Shown here in pieces: positions 8,686 to 59,145 of a DNA stretch of 64,000 nt. Origin of the DNA: Jiella soli. GTDB taxonomy: Bacteria; Pseudomonadota; Alphaproteobacteria; Rhizobiales; Rhizobiaceae. How positions within the stretch are numbered: position 1 is the stretch's first letter; each line of letters starts with the position of its first letter. A model generated the notes under the pieces. That model saw only the letters and a list, made by a program, of their open reading frames with translations. It made no database searches and was not told the DNA's origin. The stretch spans positions 154,735 through 218,734 of the forward strand of contig NZ_JAJAVB010000022.1 of NCBI RefSeq assembly GCF_020615385.1. Direction: 5' to 3'. The position numbers and the translations under genes were made by a program.

Positions 8686-8732
8686 CCCCTGTTCTGTGAG
8701 CGGCACATCGACGGTGTTGGGAGGGAGACCCC

Positions 8733-10820
8733 ATGGGCGGCTCGAAATTCATTCCGATCGTGATTGCAGGTCTTGTCGGCCTGTTCATCGGCTGGCTTCT
8801 CGGACCAAATATCGACGAGGCCAATCAGCAGCTGGCGACAGAGATCGACCAGCTGAAGGCGCCGATCGGTAACATCCAGACGAGCGTCCAGAGCTTGAAC
8901 GACACCGTCTCGCAGCAGGCGAGCCAGGCCGGCAACGGGGTCCAGGAAGCCGTCGCGGGACTTCAGACCCAGGTGGTCCAACTGACGGACCAGATGAAGG
9001 CGCAGACCGACGCTCTCGCCAATCTGGTCCAGGAGCAGGCTGCCCAAAAGTCGCAGGGCTCAGAGGCAAGCGACCAGTCCTCCAAGAAGATGGACGAGAT
9101 CGCCACGACGCTGCAGCGGGTCGAGCAGAACATCGAGCAGATCGGCCAGGCTCCGGCTCAGCCCCAGGCCCAGTCCGGCAATGCCGGTGGCGACCCCGCG
9201 GCGCTGGCGCAGCAGGTCGGCCCCAGCGGCGCCATCCTCCTGCCCGGCCAGGCGGCGATCTTCGGCGGCAGCACGGTCCAGCTCTCCGAGCTCTCCAGCC
9301 AGGACGGCAGCGCGACCATCGCCGTCGGCGGCCAGTCGCAGCAGGTGAAGTCCGGCTCGTCCGTCGATGTCGGCGGCGGCTGCACGGTGAGCGTGGCGGG
9401 GATTGCGGCAGGCGCGGCCTATCTTTCGGCCGACGGCTGCCAGAGCGGCGGCAGCCAGCAGCAGGCGGCATCCGGTCAGTCCGGCAGCGATCAGCAGCAG
9501 GCGACCGGCGGCCAGTCCGGTAGCGATCAGCAGCGCCAGCCGCAGCAGTCGGCGGGGAACGCCGGCAATCAGCCCTCCTCTAACACTGCTCCGGCACAGG
9601 GCGGCCAGCAGGGAGCTGCACAGACGGGCGACCAGCAGCAGGCCGCGAATACCGGCTCCGAGAGCGGCGGAACGAACTCCGCAAGCGTTCCGACCGGCGG
9701 CACCGCGACCTTCGGCAACACCCGCATCTTCGTCTCTTCCGTCGGCGACGGACAGGCAACGCTGTTCGCGGTCGGCGGTTCGGGCCGCAAAAAGGTCGAG
9801 GTCGGCTCCGCCATGGATGCCGGCAATGGTTGCCAGGTGACGCTGAACGGCGTCGAGAACGGCGAGGCGCAACTGAGCGCGAGCGGCTGCGACGGCAGCG
9901 GTTCCGGCGATCAGGCTGCGGCCAGCGATCAGGCCTCCTCCGACAACCAGCAACAGGCCGCGACGTCCACGGACGGACAGGCCGCCTCGGGCGGCAACGA
10001 GCCGGCGGCGGCTCCGGCGGCGACCTCGAACGAAGCCGCGAATTCGGCTTCGAACGGCGCCTCGGGCACGAGCGGCGGCTCGCAGCAAGCGGCCGCGTCG
10101 GGGAGCGGCAGCGGCGTCTCGGCGACCGTCCCGGTCGGCGGCACCGCGATCTTCGAGGGCGCGCGGGTCTTCGTCTCGGGGATCGGCGATAATCAGGCCA
10201 CCCTTTTCGCGGTCGGCGGTGCGGGCCGCAAGCAGGTGAACGTCGGATCCGCCATGGACGCGGGCAATGGCTGCCAAGTGACGCTCGAGAGCATTCAGGA
10301 CGGTCAGGCGACGCTCAGGGCGTCCGGCTGCGGGAACGACGCCGATGGCGCCAACGGCCAGGCGTCCTCCGGATCCGGAGAAAATGCGCAAGGAACGGCC
10401 GCGGCACCGGCGGACGAGGCGGCAGCCGCCTCCGGCACGAGTGGCGAAGACCAGTCGGCCTCGGCGAATGCCGGCACCTCCGAGGCGCAGCCGGCAGCTT
10501 CCGGCCAGGAGGCATCTGCGAACGCGTCGGCTAGCGGTTCCGGTCAGCAGGAGCAGCAGCCGGCCGCCACGGGCAACGGTTCCGGTCAGCAGCAGGCTTC
10601 TACCGGCGGCGACGGAATGATGACCGGGGAGACCCGCACCTTCGGCGAGCACAAGGTTTTCCTGTCGGCGGTCAACGACAATGGTGCGACGATCTACGTG
10701 ATGGGCGCCGGTCGCCAGCAGGTTGCCAGTGGCCAGTCGGCCGATCTCGGCAATGGCTGCTCGGTCAAGGTCGACCGCGTCGAGAACCGCACCGCCTATC
10801 TGTCGGCCAGCGGCTGCTGA
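8733..10820 (+). CDS. Membrane-anchored coiled-coil protein with four CX18C repeat modules
   Basis: 695 residues, preceded by GGGAGGGAGACCCC. Residues 7-24 form one membrane anchor, and 28-137 are Gln/Ala-rich coiled coil. Four modules of about 68-70 residues follow at 167-236, 318-386, 465-533 and 628-695. Each starts with a (T/V)xxGGTAxF-like strand and ends (N/G)GC...(A/S)(D/S)GC, with exactly 18 residues between its two cysteines (217/236, 367/386, 514/533, 676/695). These eight are the only cysteines I find. Linkers of 80-95 residues are rich in Gln, Ser, Ala and Gly. With the likely topology the modules would be periplasmic and disulfide-bonded. I recognise no named family. Confidence 0.85.
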   Translation: MGGSKFIPIVIAGLVGLFIGWLLGPNIDEANQQLATEIDQLKAPIGNIQTSVQSLNDTVSQQASQAGNGVQEAVAGLQTQVVQLTDQMKAQTDALANLVQEQAAQKSQGSEASDQSSKKMDEIATTLQRVEQNIEQIGQAPAQPQAQSGNAGGDPAALAQQVGPSGAILLPGQAAIFGGSTVQLSELSSQDGSATIAVGGQSQQVKSGSSVDVGGGCTVSVAGIAAGAAYLSADGCQSGGSQQQAASGQSGSDQQQATGGQSGSDQQRQPQQSAGNAGNQPSSNTAPAQGGQQGAAQTGDQQQAANTGSESGGTNSASVPTGGTATFGNTRIFVSSVGDGQATLFAVGGSGRKKVEVGSAMDAGNGCQVTLNGVENGEAQLSASGCDGSGSGDQAAASDQASSDNQQQAATSTDGQAASGGNEPAAAPAATSNEAANSASNGASGTSGGSQQAAASGSGSGVSATVPVGGTAIFEGARVFVSGIGDNQATLFAVGGAGRKQVNVGSAMDAGNGCQVTLESIQDGQATLRASGCGNDADGANGQASSGSGENAQGTAAAPADEAAAASGTSGEDQSASANAGTSEAQPAASGQEASANASASGSGQQEQQPAATGNGSGQQQASTGGDGMMTGETRTFGEHKVFLSAVNDNGATIYVMGAGRQQVASGQSADLGNGCSVKVDRVENRTAYLSASGC

Positions 10821-10845: not shown

Positions 10846-10884
10846 GAGGGGCGCAGCTTTCCAGGAAGCTGCGCCCCTCTTTCG
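10846..10884 (+). terminator. Rho-independent terminator of the CX18C-repeat gene
   Basis: The arms GAGGGGCGCAGCTT and AAGCTGCGCCCCTC pair perfectly around a short loop and are followed by TTTCGTT. It lies 26 nt after the stop codon. Confidence 0.85.
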
Positions 10885-11065: not shown

Positions 11066-11467
11066 ATGCGCAATATCGACAAGATCTACGCCTCGCTCGG
11101 CCTCGCCTGGCTGATCGGCGCCGCCGCCTTCGGCACCTGGCTCGGCGCCAGCGGCCATCCGAACTTCGCCCAGTCGCACGCCCATATCGGCCTTCTCGGC
11201 TTCGTCGCCTCGGTGCTGTTCGGTCTGATGCACAAGGCCTGGCCGGAGCTGCGGCAGAGCCGCCTCGCCCTGCCGCAACTCGTCGTCTACGAAGTCGGAA
11301 CGGTCGTCCTCTTGACCGGCAAGGTGATGATCGACGCCAGCGGCCAGCCGAACCTCCTCCTCATGACTGGCGCGCCCATCGTCATCATCGGCGGGGCGAT
11401 GTTCCTCTGGCTGTTCGTGAAGAGCCCGGCGACCGCACCGGCGACCATGCTGTCGCCGGCCGAATAA
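11066..11467 (+). CDS. Four-helix membrane protein, heme-copper-oxidase-subunit-I-like
   Basis: 133 residues starting MRNIDKIYASLGLAW after CTGGAGCTGGTC. Four hydrophobic helices are visible (about 8-28, 38-58, 72-90 and 97-116). The pattern SHAHIGLLGF with a following LMHKAWPEL resembles short alphaproteobacterial proteins annotated as cytochrome-c-oxidase (subunit I-like) fragments. The three His residues (two in SHAH, one in LMHK) could bind heme or metal, but this is inference. No other respiratory gene is adjacent. Confidence 0.7.
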   Translation: MRNIDKIYASLGLAWLIGAAAFGTWLGASGHPNFAQSHAHIGLLGFVASVLFGLMHKAWPELRQSRLALPQLVVYEVGTVVLLTGKVMIDASGQPNLLLMTGAPIVIIGGAMFLWLFVKSPATAPATMLSPAE

Positions 11468-49956: not shown

Positions 49957-51045
49957 TTATGTGTCGAGATCGGTCCGCCTTCGCGTCAATTCGATGCCCA
50001 CCGCGCCGGGGCCGAGCGCAAGTTTTTCCACCCGCACCGTTACCTCGTGCACACGGCGATCGGCAAGAATCGCCCGGCACAGCGACAGCGCCAGCGTCTC
50101 GACGAGATCAGTGTGGCCGCGCTCGCCGAGGGCCCGGATCGCGTCCATGATGACGTCGTAGGAATAGATGTCGCCCATGGTCTCGGCGTCCGGCCGGATC
50201 CGGTCGATCTGTGCCTCCACGGAAAACCGGACATCCTGGCGCCGTCCGCGCTCATGGCCATAGGCGCCGATCTCCATCGCCATCGTCATGTCGCGCACGA
50301 AGATGCGGTCTTTCGCCACTCCCGCGCCGACGCTCTCCGTCGAAGGGCCATGGATCAGGCCGGCGATCCGCCGCACCGCGGGAAGGTCGACCGGGCCGTC
50401 GCGCCGGCCGGCGGCGAGCGCGCCGCGAAAGCCGAGATAGTCCGGCTCCAGCACGAGGAGGCGCGGCACGTCCGGCGGTTCCAGCGATCCGGCGAGCCCG
50501 GTCATCAGGCCGAGTCCCCTCGCCCGCTCCAGGAAGCTGCCAAGACTGGCGACCGAGAGATGCGACAGGAGGCCCTTCGGCCCACCGCCAGCCGGAGCGC
50601 CCTCGCCGCCGGTCTTCCCGATCGTGTCGATCATCGCGCCGGCAAAGCCCGCTTCCGCGAGCAAAGGCAGAAGATCGAAGTCCGGGTCGCCGTCGGCGAA
50701 GAAGACGGCAACGAGCCGGATCCTTTCGGCGAGCGGCCGGAGAGCGCTTATCACCGCCTCGCGCTCGCGCCGGCTCGCCGGGAACAGGCCGATCTTGACG
50801 AAGTCGGCCGCGGCGCGCGCCTCCACCTCGGCCGAGACGATGCGCGGCTCCATCGGCAGGTCGCCCGCCACCGCCGAGACCGGCCGGCGGCCAGCGACGC
50901 GGACGATCGTCGCCTTAAGGACCGCGGGCGGAACCGCGCCGAGCGCGCCCTTCGACGGGTCCTTCAGATCGACGATGTCGGCGCCGCCCTCGATCACGAT
51001 CCCGGCCTCGTCCGGACCGGTGACACTGGCCAGAAGCTTGGTCAC
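49957..51045 (-). CDS. Fusion of (5-formylfuran-3-yl)methyl phosphate synthase (MfnB) and dihydroneopterin aldolase (FolB)
   Basis: 362 residues. Domain 1 (about 1-232) is MfnB/DUF556: LLASVTGPDEAGIVIEGGADIVDLKDPSKGALGA with the candidate Schiff-base Lys28, DFVKIGLF (Lys84) and MIDTIGKTG (Lys144). Domain 2 (about 245-355) is FolB-like: KDRIFVRDMTMAMEIGAYGHERGRRQ, ETMGDIYSYDVIMDAI, THTDLVE-type helix and VTVRVEKLALGPGAVGIEL. Domain 1 makes the furan of methanofuran from glyceraldehyde 3-phosphate; domain 2 cleaves dihydroneopterin for the H4MPT pterin. GTG start overlaps the DUF3280 stop (GTGA at 51042-51045). Confidence 0.92.
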   Translation of the reverse strand: MTKLLASVTGPDEAGIVIEGGADIVDLKDPSKGALGAVPPAVLKATIVRVAGRRPVSAVAGDLPMEPRIVSAEVEARAAADFVKIGLFPASRREREAVISALRPLAERIRLVAVFFADGDPDFDLLPLLAEAGFAGAMIDTIGKTGGEGAPAGGGPKGLLSHLSVASLGSFLERARGLGLMTGLAGSLEPPDVPRLLVLEPDYLGFRGALAAGRRDGPVDLPAVRRIAGLIHGPSTESVGAGVAKDRIFVRDMTMAMEIGAYGHERGRRQDVRFSVEAQIDRIRPDAETMGDIYSYDVIMDAIRALGERGHTDLVETLALSLCRAILADRRVHEVTVRVEKLALGPGAVGIELTRRRTDLDT

Positions 51046-51599
51046 TTCAGGCTCTCGAACTGCGTCTTCAGGACGTTTTTCCACAGATAGTCGATGCCGC
51101 GCTGCCAGCTCTCGTCGGTATTCGAGCGGATGTCGGCGCTGCCGCGGGCGATCTGCTTCCCAGTGCCGACGTCGAAGGCATAGGCGTTGATGTTGAGAAT
51201 GAGGTTCGACACCTTCTGCACCGTGCCGATGACGGCGATATCGGCGCCGATATCCTTGGCGAAGGTGACCGCGCAATTGCCGCAGTTCTGAAGGTTCTGC
51301 TTCTTCGCCCTCGCCTCGACCGGCTGGGTGTCGACGATCGCGAAGTCCGGCAGCGCCCCGATGTCCTCGCGCAGCGTCGGCGCCATCTTGTCGAGGCGCG
51401 CCGTCTGGGCCGAATCCTCGCCCAACATCTGCCCCTCGAGGCTCGAATCGATCAGCTCGAAGTCGAACACCGCGACGTTCCGCTCCGCCGCAAGCGCCGG
51501 TGCCGCCATGGCCGCGAGCGCCGCCAGAACCAGGACAACGGGAAAAAGTCTCGCTTGCCTTACGAGGTCACGTCCGTAACTCATCTCTTGCCTGAACAT
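51042..51599 (-). CDS. DUF3280-type secreted protein of the methanol oxidation region
   Basis: About 185 residues. The signal peptide covers residues 11-37 (LFPVVLVLAALAAMAAPALA). The mature part VAVFDFELIDSSLEGQ, then PDFAIVDTQPVEARAKKQNLQNCGNCAVTFAKDIGADIAVIG, is the DUF3280/DUF2380 pattern associated with PQQ-dependent alcohol oxidation genes, and it contains a CGNC pair. I chose ATG 51599 with GGAGGAGCGAG upstream; ATG 51584 is possible. It is transcribed divergently from the ABC binding protein and coupled to the MfnB-FolB gene. Confidence 0.85.
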   Translation of the reverse strand: MFRQEMSYGRDLVRQARLFPVVLVLAALAAMAAPALAAERNVAVFDFELIDSSLEGQMLGEDSAQTARLDKMAPTLREDIGALPDFAIVDTQPVEARAKKQNLQNCGNCAVTFAKDIGADIAVIGTVQKVSNLILNINAYAFDVGTGKQIARGSADIRSNTDESWQRGIDYLWKNVLKTQFESLK

Positions 51600-55708: not shown

Positions 55709-56683
55709 TTGAGACGACTGCCCCTTGCGGCTCTCGCCGCGACGCTCGCGCTGTCGGCAAGCCCGGCCTACGCCTACAAGGTCTTCGTGTCGAACGAGAA
55801 GGGGAACGACGTCTCTGTTCTCGACTCCGAACAGGACTTTGCCGTTGTCGACACGTTCGCCGTCGGCCAGAGGCCGCGCGGCATCGCCGTCAGCCCGGAC
55901 GGCAAGTCGCTCTACGTCTGCACGAGCGACGACGACATCATCAAAGAATTCGACACTAAGACGCATGCGTTCATCCGGACGCTGCCATCTGGCCCCGATC
56001 CTGAACTCCTGGTGGTGTCGCCCAGCGGCGACCAGCTCTATGCCGCCAATGAAGACGACAATCTCGTCACCGTCATCGACCTGAACACTGGTGCGCGCCT
56101 CGCCGAGATCCCGGTCGGCGTCGAGCCGGAGGGCATGGGTGTATCGCCAGACGGGCAGACCGTCGTCAATACGTCGGAAACGACGAACATGGCGCATTTC
56201 ATCGACCGCGACAGCCAGCAGATCACCGCCAACGTTCTCGTCGATTCGCGACCCCGCTTCGCCCAGTACAAGCAGGACGGGACCGAGATCTGGGTGTCGG
56301 CGGAGATCGGCGGCACCGTATCGGTGATCGACGCCGCGACCAAGGTGGTCAAGCACAAGGTTACCTTCGATATCCCAGGCATCCGCTCCGGGGCGATCCA
56401 GCCGGTGGGCGTGCGCATCACCGACGATGGAACCAAGGCCTATATCGCGCTCGGACCGGCCAATCGTGTCGCAGTCGTCGATGCCAACACCTACGAGGTG
56501 GAGGACTATATCCTCGTCGGCCAGAGAGTTTGGCAGCTCGCCTTTTCGCCGGACCAGAAATATCTCTTCACCACCAACGGCCTATCAAACGACATCACGA
56601 TCATCGACGTCGCATCCGACCGCGCCGTGAAGTCGGTTCAGGTCGGCCAGCAGCCATGGGGTCTCGCCGTCACGCCGGAATGA
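55709..56683 (+). CDS. YVTN beta-propeller protein associated with PQQ-dependent catabolism
   Basis: 324 residues, TTG start with GGGAGGAATGA upstream. The signal peptide ends SPAYAYK. About seven YVTN/NHL-like blades follow, recognisable as RPRGIAVSPDGKSLYVC, DPELLVVSPSGDQLYAA, EPEGMGVSPDGQTV, VWQLAFSPDQKYLFTT and QPWGLAVTPE. It belongs to the periplasmic beta-propeller group found with PQQ/ABC clusters. No catalytic residues are evident, so a scaffold or carrier role is likely. Confidence 0.92.
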   Translation: MRRLPLAALAATLALSASPAYAYKVFVSNEKGNDVSVLDSEQDFAVVDTFAVGQRPRGIAVSPDGKSLYVCTSDDDIIKEFDTKTHAFIRTLPSGPDPELLVVSPSGDQLYAANEDDNLVTVIDLNTGARLAEIPVGVEPEGMGVSPDGQTVVNTSETTNMAHFIDRDSQQITANVLVDSRPRFAQYKQDGTEIWVSAEIGGTVSVIDAATKVVKHKVTFDIPGIRSGAIQPVGVRITDDGTKAYIALGPANRVAVVDANTYEVEDYILVGQRVWQLAFSPDQKYLFTTNGLSNDITIIDVASDRAVKSVQVGQQPWGLAVTPE

Positions 56684-56739
56684 TCGCGCGGCAACCGTCG
56701 CCCGCGCGAGATCGATGATAACCACCGGGAGAAACTGTA

Positions 56740-57381
56740 ATGAAATCACCATGGCTCGTTCTAATGGCCGCATTGTTCGGTGTGGGCATCGCCTTCGCGC
56801 CGGCCGGCCCTGCTTTCGCCCAGCAGGCCGATGACGACGACGCGGCCAGCCCCGCGGCTTCCGCTACCGCACAGGCGGACGACGACGATGATGATGATGA
56901 TGACGGCGACGCCCAGAGCGCCAGCATGGTGCCGGCCGCCGAAGGACTGAAGATCCCTCCGGGTTCGGAGATGATGCCGGCGGCCGCCCTCAACGGCGAC
57001 CAGATCGGCCTGCCGAAGAACAGCCTGTCCTCGCAGATCATCACGCCGCTGGTCCTCGGCCAGGGCGGTCAGCCCTTCAAGGTCAGTCACACCGATTTCT
57101 ATCTGCGCGCCGGCCAAGCCTATCGCTGGGATATCAAGTCCGAGGGCGACATCGAATACAAGTTCAACGCGCCCGACTTCTTCCGCAATGTCTGGATGAA
57201 CCAGATCGTCATCGACGATCTCGAGGTTCATATGGCCGGCGCGCCGGCCTGGCTCGAATACGACGCCCACGGCACCATCACCGTGCAGTTCCAGACCGTG
57301 CGGCCCGGCCGCTACGACTGGCATGTCGGCGGCCTCGACAAAGAGCACGAGATGAAGGGCACGATCACCGTGGTGCCGTGA
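56740..57381 (+). CDS. Secreted cupredoxin-like protein with poly-aspartate segment
   Basis: 213 residues. The signal peptide is 1-27 (ending GPAFAQ). Residues 29-56 contain four, then nine, consecutive Asp. From about 70 onward a beta-rich domain (FKVSHTDFYLRAGQAYRWDIKSEG, then HGTITVQFQTVRPGRYDWHVGGL, then KGTITVVP) looks like a cupredoxin fold without the Cys ligand of blue copper sites. ATG follows GGGAGAAACTGTA. Its place in a XoxF-linked cluster suggests metal binding, but the metal is not known. Confidence 0.85.
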   Translation: MKSPWLVLMAALFGVGIAFAPAGPAFAQQADDDDAASPAASATAQADDDDDDDDDGDAQSASMVPAAEGLKIPPGSEMMPAAALNGDQIGLPKNSLSSQIITPLVLGQGGQPFKVSHTDFYLRAGQAYRWDIKSEGDIEYKFNAPDFFRNVWMNQIVIDDLEVHMAGAPAWLEYDAHGTITVQFQTVRPGRYDWHVGGLDKEHEMKGTITVVP

Positions 57382-57505
57382 CACCCCTAAACCACAGCGA
57401 CGACGAGGCCGCGGCTCGTTCCGCGGCCTCGCGTCGTCTGGCCCCTGCCCGATCAAGCCTTTGCCGTGTAGAGAGGACGAAGGCGCCGAAGAGAGCGATG
57501 CAAGA

Positions 57506-58300
57506 ATGCAGGACGGGACCGTGAACGATTCGGAAGCCCCCGGCGCCCCGGCCCTCAGCGTCGAGCATGTCAGCCATTCCTATGGCCAGAGGCGGGCGCT
57601 CGACGATGTCTCCTTCTGCGTGCCGCAGGGATCGTTCACCGCGCTGCTCGGGCCGAACGGCGCCGGCAAGTCGACGCTCTATTCGCTGATCACGCGTCTC
57701 TTCGACACGCGCGCCGGATCGATCCGGATTCTCGGCCATGACCTGCACCGGGAACCGGGGGAGGCGCTGCGCCGCCTCGGTATCGTCTTCCAGGCGCGCA
57801 CGCTGGATCTCGACCTGTCGATCCGGCAGAATCTGATCTACCACGCCGCGCTGCACGGAATTCCCAGCAAGATGGCCAAGGCGCGGATCGGCGAAATCCT
57901 GGCCGGGTCGGACCTGATCGACCGGCTCGGCGAAAAGGCCCGCAACCTCTCCGGCGGCCAGCTGCGCCGGATCGAGATCGTGCGCGCCTTCATGCACCGG
58001 CCGCGGCTGATCCTGCTCGACGAGCCGACGGTCGGGCTCGACATCCGCTCGCGCGCCGAGATCGTCGCCGAGGTGCGGCGCCTCGTGAAGGAGGAAGGCG
58101 TCTCCGTCCTCTGGGCGACGCATCTGATCGACGAGATCGACGAGAGCGATCGGGTCGTCGTCCTTCACCATGGCAAGGTCCTGGCGGAAGGCCGGGTCCC
58201 CGACATCGTCGCGGCCGAGCGCGTCGCGTCGATCCGCGAGGCGTTTTCCGGCCTCACCGGCCTTGCCGGCCGCCAGACAGATCTGGAGATGGCGTCGTGA
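57506..58300 (+). CDS. ABC transporter ATP-binding protein of the PQQ-associated system
   Basis: 264 residues. Walker A LLGPNGAGKSTLYS is at 48-61, the signature LSGGQLRRIEIVRAFMHRP, Walker B LILLDEPTVGLDI and the H-loop WATHLIDEI follow. Preferred start ATG 57506; GTG 57521 is possible. It pairs with the adjacent ABC-2 permease, which starts in a GTGA overlap, and probably with the binding protein at 51734. Import or export direction is unclear: the ABC-2 type permease suggests export while the binding protein suggests uptake. Confidence 0.93.
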   Translation: MQDGTVNDSEAPGAPALSVEHVSHSYGQRRALDDVSFCVPQGSFTALLGPNGAGKSTLYSLITRLFDTRAGSIRILGHDLHREPGEALRRLGIVFQARTLDLDLSIRQNLIYHAALHGIPSKMAKARIGEILAGSDLIDRLGEKARNLSGGQLRRIEIVRAFMHRPRLILLDEPTVGLDIRSRAEIVAEVRRLVKEEGVSVLWATHLIDEIDESDRVVVLHHGKVLAEGRVPDIVAAERVASIREAFSGLTGLAGRQTDLEMAS

Positions 58301-59145
58301 CGATCACCTCCTCGCATCAGGACACTCTGCCGGAGCGGCGCGGCTTTCCGCTCTCCGCCTACCTCATCTGCCTGCAGGGCATCGTTCTCCGCGAATGGCT
58401 GCGCTTCCTGCATCAGCGCGAGCGCTTCGTCTCCGCACTGGTGCGCCCGCTCCTGTGGCTGTTCATCTTCGCAGCGGGCTTCCGCCAGGTGTTGGGCGTC
58501 TCGATCGTCGCGCCCTATCAGACCTACATCCTCTACGAGGTCTACATCACGCCCGGCCTTGCGGGCATGATCCTGCTCTTCAACGGCATGCAGTCGTCGC
58601 TGTCGATGGTCTACGACCGCGAGACCGGGACGATGAAGACGCTGCTCGTCTCGCCGCTGCCGCGCTGGTTCCTCCTCACCTCCAAGCTTCTCGCCGGCGT
58701 CGCAGTCGGGGTCCTCCAGGTCTATGTCTTCTTCGCCATCGCCTGGTTCTGGGACGTCAAGCCGGAGTGGACCGGCTATCTCTACGCCCTGCCGGCGATC
58801 TTCCTCACCGGGCTGATGCTCGGCTCGCTCGGCATGCTGCTGTCGTCCCTGGTCCAGCAGCTAGAGAACTTCGCGGGGGTCATGAACTTCGTGATCTTCC
58901 CGATGTATTTCGCCTCCTCCGCGCTCTATCCGCTCTGGCGCGTCCAGGAATCCTCGCCGCTGCTCTACAAGATCTGCCAGGTGAACCCGTTCACCCACGG
59001 CATCGAGCTCATACGCTTTGCGCTCTACGGCCAGTTCAACGGTCAGGCGCTGCTGATCGTGCTCGGCTGCACCATCGTCTTTCTCGGAGGCGCAATCATC
59101 GCCTATGATCCGTCGCGGGGCGTCATCAGCCGCAAGCGCCAGTAA
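58297..59145 (+). CDS. ABC-2-type permease of the PQQ-associated system
   Basis: 282 residues with six membrane helices. RPLLWLFIFAAGFRQVL, YQTYILYEVYITPGLAGMILLFNGM and LLTSKLLAGVAVGVLQVYVFFAI, then FAGVMNFVIFPMYFASSALYPLW and the late VNPFTHGIELIRFALYG, are typical of ABC-2 permeases found with PQQ alcohol dehydrogenase genes. GTG start overlaps the ATPase stop. Two or more subunits with the ATPase form the inner-membrane complex. Confidence 0.93.
   Translation: MTITSSHQDTLPERRGFPLSAYLICLQGIVLREWLRFLHQRERFVSALVRPLLWLFIFAAGFRQVLGVSIVAPYQTYILYEVYITPGLAGMILLFNGMQSSLSMVYDRETGTMKTLLVSPLPRWFLLTSKLLAGVAVGVLQVYVFFAIAWFWDVKPEWTGYLYALPAIFLTGLMLGSLGMLLSSLVQQLENFAGVMNFVIFPMYFASSALYPLWRVQESSPLLYKICQVNPFTHGIELIRFALYGQFNGQALLIVLGCTIVFLGGAIIAYDPSRGVISRKRQ

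Follow-up and report, generated by a model that had tools for sequence, protein, structure and literature searches.

The gene at positions 8733-10820 of the window (the whole 64,000-nucleotide stretch of DNA analysed here) is best explained, with a rough probability of 0.55, as encoding an inner-membrane-anchored periplasmic tether which would provide multivalent protein docking by way of a new domain. Its N-terminal helix would lie in the inner membrane and the remainder would be extracytoplasmic, with several compact, mostly acidic, disulfide-closed beta domains borne on a helical stalk and on disordered linkers. The copies of this module would probably dock with avidity onto at least one protein partner in the periplasm; we propose that the protein would thereby gather or position such partners near the membrane. 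It is the architecture of the protein that suggests docking, while the presence of an acidic region after the hydrophobic anchor points to a periplasmic location, and the conservation and pairing of the cysteines, taken with that topology, argue for a disulfide. The gene, the architecture, the predicted fold class, the conserved cysteines, the variable copy number and the similarity between the two halves of the module are all computational results. That the CX16-18C module represents a new, undescribed domain family is well supported. It would add to the known periplasmic domains one that is clearly delimited, varies in copy number and already has orthologs to work with, which makes its structure and partner directly testable.

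The open reading frame lies on the + strand, running from the ATG at 8733 to a stop ending at 10820; it encodes 695 amino acids and is present in a single copy in its own genome. A Shine-Dalgarno-like GGAGGGAG (8720-8727, +), recognised by reading the sequence, ends 5 nt before the ATG, and a terminator-like hairpin with a 15-pair stem (10846-10879, +), detected by a consensus scan only, follows the stop; the gene is thus probably transcribed alone, as its own unit. On its 3' side, 11066-11467 (+) encodes a small hydrophobic protein that had no match in the NCBIfam scan, and the matching place is occupied likewise in the relative loci L043 and L050.

An earlier note, made from the letters of the DNA, had claimed one N-terminal membrane helix, a coiled coil and four modules. 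The translation is as it described, and its module ends (9440, 9890, 10331 and 10817) agree with ours. Residues 1-28 (8733-8816) form the sole hydrophobic stretch by Kyte-Doolittle analysis, in keeping with the single membrane helix, and this anchor is conserved in the relatives. Residues 27-137 (8811-9143) are predicted by AlphaFold2 to be helical, at low pLDDT and with a hydrophobic period of 3.6, so that a coiled coil is plausible there. There follow module 1, of the membrane-proximal type (9207-9440), module 2 (9678-9890), module 3 (10095-10331) and the terminal module 4 (10614-10817), all delimited by alignment and profile; all four are folded in the full-length AlphaFold2 model, and the fourth has a pLDDT of 86 when predicted alone. 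Between them lie three linkers predicted to be disordered, at 9444-9674, 9897-10112 and 10341-10607 (residues 238-314, 389-460 and 537-625, with pLDDT about 30 in the full-length prediction). Across the family, the linkers consist to 84-99% of Gln, Ser, Gly, Ala, Thr, Pro, Glu and Asn, and the majority of modules are acidic. The cysteines of the protein are at 217/236, 367/386, 514/533 and 676/695, giving four CX18C pairs with no further cysteine, the last of them being the final residue of the protein, on which module 4 ends. The 18-residue spacing on which the earlier note remarked is thus exact here; in the family as a whole it is not absolute, ranging from 16 to 18, with a few modules of relatives being CX16C or CX17C.

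No Pfam or NCBIfam family model describes the modules, and literature text searches found no paper on such a family; the named Pfam domain that might have accounted for them was looked for, and none lies over the module. Sequence searches of Pfam, NCBIfam, PHROGs and the PDB returned chance or coiled-coil matches only. When the 298 genomes sampled from the same GTDB family were searched with a profile of the four modules, relatives were detected in 21 (the gene's own genome included), belonging to 10 of 109 genera; the genome searches covered samples of species rather than all genomes. The class and phylum samples, with 288 and 179 further genomes respectively, gave no module match, and neither did plasmids. 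Weak order-level matches in G340, G543, G549 and G615 were set aside as being located in unrelated frames, and that in G612 has two stops inside the match. A contig scan with a single short pattern matched just two close relatives, giving named loci in Aurantimonas sp. 22II-16-19i and a Fulvimarina MAG. The relatives have a common N-terminal anchor resembling MGGSKFIPIVVAGLVGLFIGWLLGPDxDD; its profile gave strong matches in the same 21 genomes only, along with nine weak ones (E 1e-3 to 7e-3). The module is found in other genomes, but only narrowly: in one group of the GTDB family and, as remote relatives, in two further families of the order.

The number of modules per protein varies from one to five, in line with the variable repeat number that had been suggested for relatives. 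After the start, every one of the 22 proteins (75 modules) has exactly two cysteines for each of its modules; the set includes close relatives such as those of L033 and L053 and so does not amount to 22 independent cases. Both cysteine columns are invariant across 39 aligned modules, and five ortholog pairs indicate purifying selection, with dN/dS of 0.10-0.32 in the modules.

With 12 sequences as input, AlphaFold2 predicted a single module to be all-beta with eight strands, at a mean pLDDT of 86; with three sequences as input, the full-length prediction again had all four modules folded (block pLDDT mostly 75-94), the fold being in both cases a prediction from few sequences. The small beta domain with a conserved cysteine pair that had been proposed from the letters is borne out to this extent, and the opposite case that had been raised, of disordered segments with non-conserved cysteines, finds no echo in the predictions or the alignment. 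The first half of the module resembles the second in register, with an hhalign score of 21.3 against a maximum of 18.0 in 150 column-shuffled controls, so that the module looks like an internal duplication in which a beta unit of roughly 32 residues occurs twice. In the sister profile A5 this signal is less distinct and does not stand out clearly, 3 of 150 shuffles reaching the score.

In all 21 relative loci the gene adjoins pdxJ, and in 12 of them a recD-like helicase gene lies on the other side; between these two it stands alone. Its named neighbours, pdxJ, ilvC and the recD-like gene, all have housekeeping functions, with no linked partner gene among them. The loci of same-family relatives lacking the gene, where read, have no such ORF at the corresponding site: pdxJ and the recD-like gene are 33-149 nt apart in L120, L121, L128 and L134, and in the others either other genes intervene or a recD-like gene was not seen in the stretch read. 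A single branch of the pdxJ+recD tree splits carriers from non-carriers, and the distribution of the gene fits one gain or one loss. In the module tree, which is built on few columns and leaves many forks unresolved, the membrane-proximal position, that of module 1, forms a supported group of its own (100/99) that includes both single-module proteins. The middle modules appear there as lineage-specific duplications, as with modules 2 and 3 of the window protein, which are nearest to each other.

A match to the module profile in G307, from another family of the order (E 2.3e-4), was the entry point to a sister group which spans two other families of the order and has the same cysteine pair. A single pair of sister and window-type profiles gave an hhalign probability of 88 (E 3.4e-6), and the cysteine columns are invariant in a joint alignment of the two types of module. 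The two would thus be homologous members of one superfamily, the tie being a remote one. Among the plans repeated in the sister group are nine modules on a single anchor (G307, G390), a helix with just one module (G306) and a fusion of the module with cytochrome c (G307, G448). Five sister loci were collected, four of them annotated (L078, L088, L089 and L090, the fifth being L087). In L078 (6676-10086) and L090 (5812-9627) there are single-anchor proteins with nine cysteine-paired modules each, representing an undescribed sister family, that of L078 having no match in Pfam or NCBIfam; L087 (7557-8558, +) and L088 (7237-9972, -) encode cytochrome c proteins with a cysteine-paired module on the N-terminal side.

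These neighbourhoods raise a more specific but clearly less probable reading, in which the protein is a docking scaffold for periplasmic PQQ (quinoprotein) alcohol oxidation, its modules keeping a dehydrogenase or a cytochrome c close to the membrane. In all four annotated sister loci the modules lie beside PQQ-associated genes: L078, L088 and L089 have PQQ-alcohol-dehydrogenase-associated ABC or binding-protein genes over cut-off, and L090 has a beta-propeller that matches a PQQ model below cut-off; the two cytochrome c fusions point the same way. Further, PedC (TIGR03861) scores above cut-off in 19 of the 21 carriers vs 2 of 16 same-family non-carriers (Fisher p 4e-6), a co-occurrence confounded by ancestry because one tree branch separates the two sets, and a PQQ-dependent catabolism cluster with a PQQ_ABC_repeats beta-propeller, PQQ_ABC_ATP and the PedC permease is present in the window itself (55709-59142, +). 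Against this, the window-type gene is 48 kb from that cluster, at a housekeeping locus, and the association has exceptions in both directions, G158 and G274 having the gene without PedC over cut-off and G011 and G015 the converse. If the link through the sister group is true, the module would be an unrecognised docking element around PQQ/cytochrome c alcohol oxidation in Hyphomicrobiales. Within the cluster, the product of 56740-57381 has an N-terminus resembling a signal and contains nine Asp in a row. Elsewhere in the window, a frame at 49957-51276 (-) has matches, all under the respective cut-offs, to (5-formylfuran-3-yl)methyl phosphate synthase-like models; proteins of this kind are seen in C1 metabolism.

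The docking tether remains our preferred account of the window protein, and two further readings have been weighed beside it. Flexible modular proteins can act as spacers rather than docks, and the long flexible linkers and repeated modules would suit a binder of cell wall or polysaccharide, or an elastic element spacing the inner membrane from the wall; since the modules match none of the known families that bind wall or carbohydrate and are mostly acidic, this seems unlikely. Less probable still is an adaptor of the HR type, which, like GspC, GspB/OutB and PilP, would link the inner membrane to a secretin, or some similar machine, in the outer membrane. GspB has a single membrane helix, a variable-length linker and a small all-beta periplasmic domain, and OutB anchors the secretin to the inner membrane and wall (PMC9239104). 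The window protein resembles OutB in having a single anchor, a variable linker and a small predicted all-beta domain, and its module gave VIA fold matches to LspC (Z 5.3 over 55 residues, a middling value) and PilP (Z 3.1-3.5). The HR domain, on the other hand, is six-stranded (PMC3169554) and has a secretin as its working partner, whereas the module has eight predicted strands, a conserved cysteine pair and up to five copies; when 39 modules were searched against Pfam at E up to 1, HR and PilP models were absent among the matches, and there is no secretin among the named neighbours. That there is no real domain at all, high-GC DNA giving long open frames on both strands and the linkers being low-complexity, can be dismissed as highly improbable in view of the dN/dS values, the cysteine count and the confident predicted fold.

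Other known folds were compared with the module. A Foldseek search of the PDB gave nothing significant, and none of the VIA matches reaches Z 8, below which a match may mean only a common beta arrangement. Among them were those to the cytochrome c haem lyases CcsBA (Z 7.4) and CcmF (Z 6.3), middling beta-fold matches to large multi-span proteins unlike the window protein, and to the DUF1608 domain of the Methanosarcina S-layer (Z 7.2, again middling, over 72 residues), which belongs to an archaeal lattice protein. The DUF1608 model is absent among the Pfam matches of the modules, while another archaeal S-layer model, S_layer_N, gave sub-threshold matches in 4 of 39 (about 14 bits vs a cut-off of 27).

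Viral fold matches reached TM 0.78, and one good match was named carbon storage regulator. When compared with the CsrA core, half 2 of the module scored 19.8 in register (shuffled maximum 12.2, with none of 150 shuffles reaching the score), and half 1 showed no resemblance (17 of 150 shuffles reaching its score); since this comparison was chosen after the fold hint, the likeness is treated as a lead and not as a family assignment. PF02599 (CsrA) is absent from the matches that the 39 modules gave at E up to 1, and the genome as a whole contains no match to it. CsrA forms homodimers in which strands 1 and 5 are swapped (PMC3791407), whereas the window module is part of one chain on a membrane anchor. 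A bolder scheme, to which we would give a small chance, is that the whole superfamily arose from a CsrA-like beta unit duplicated in one chain and closed by a disulfide, one to nine copies of which would dock the machinery of PQQ alcohol oxidation and of cytochrome c in Hyphomicrobiales. A further comparison is with the sister modules of the PQQ clusters, which share the invariant cysteine pair with the window protein but form a separate subfamily, with one to nine modules and a different gene neighbourhood.
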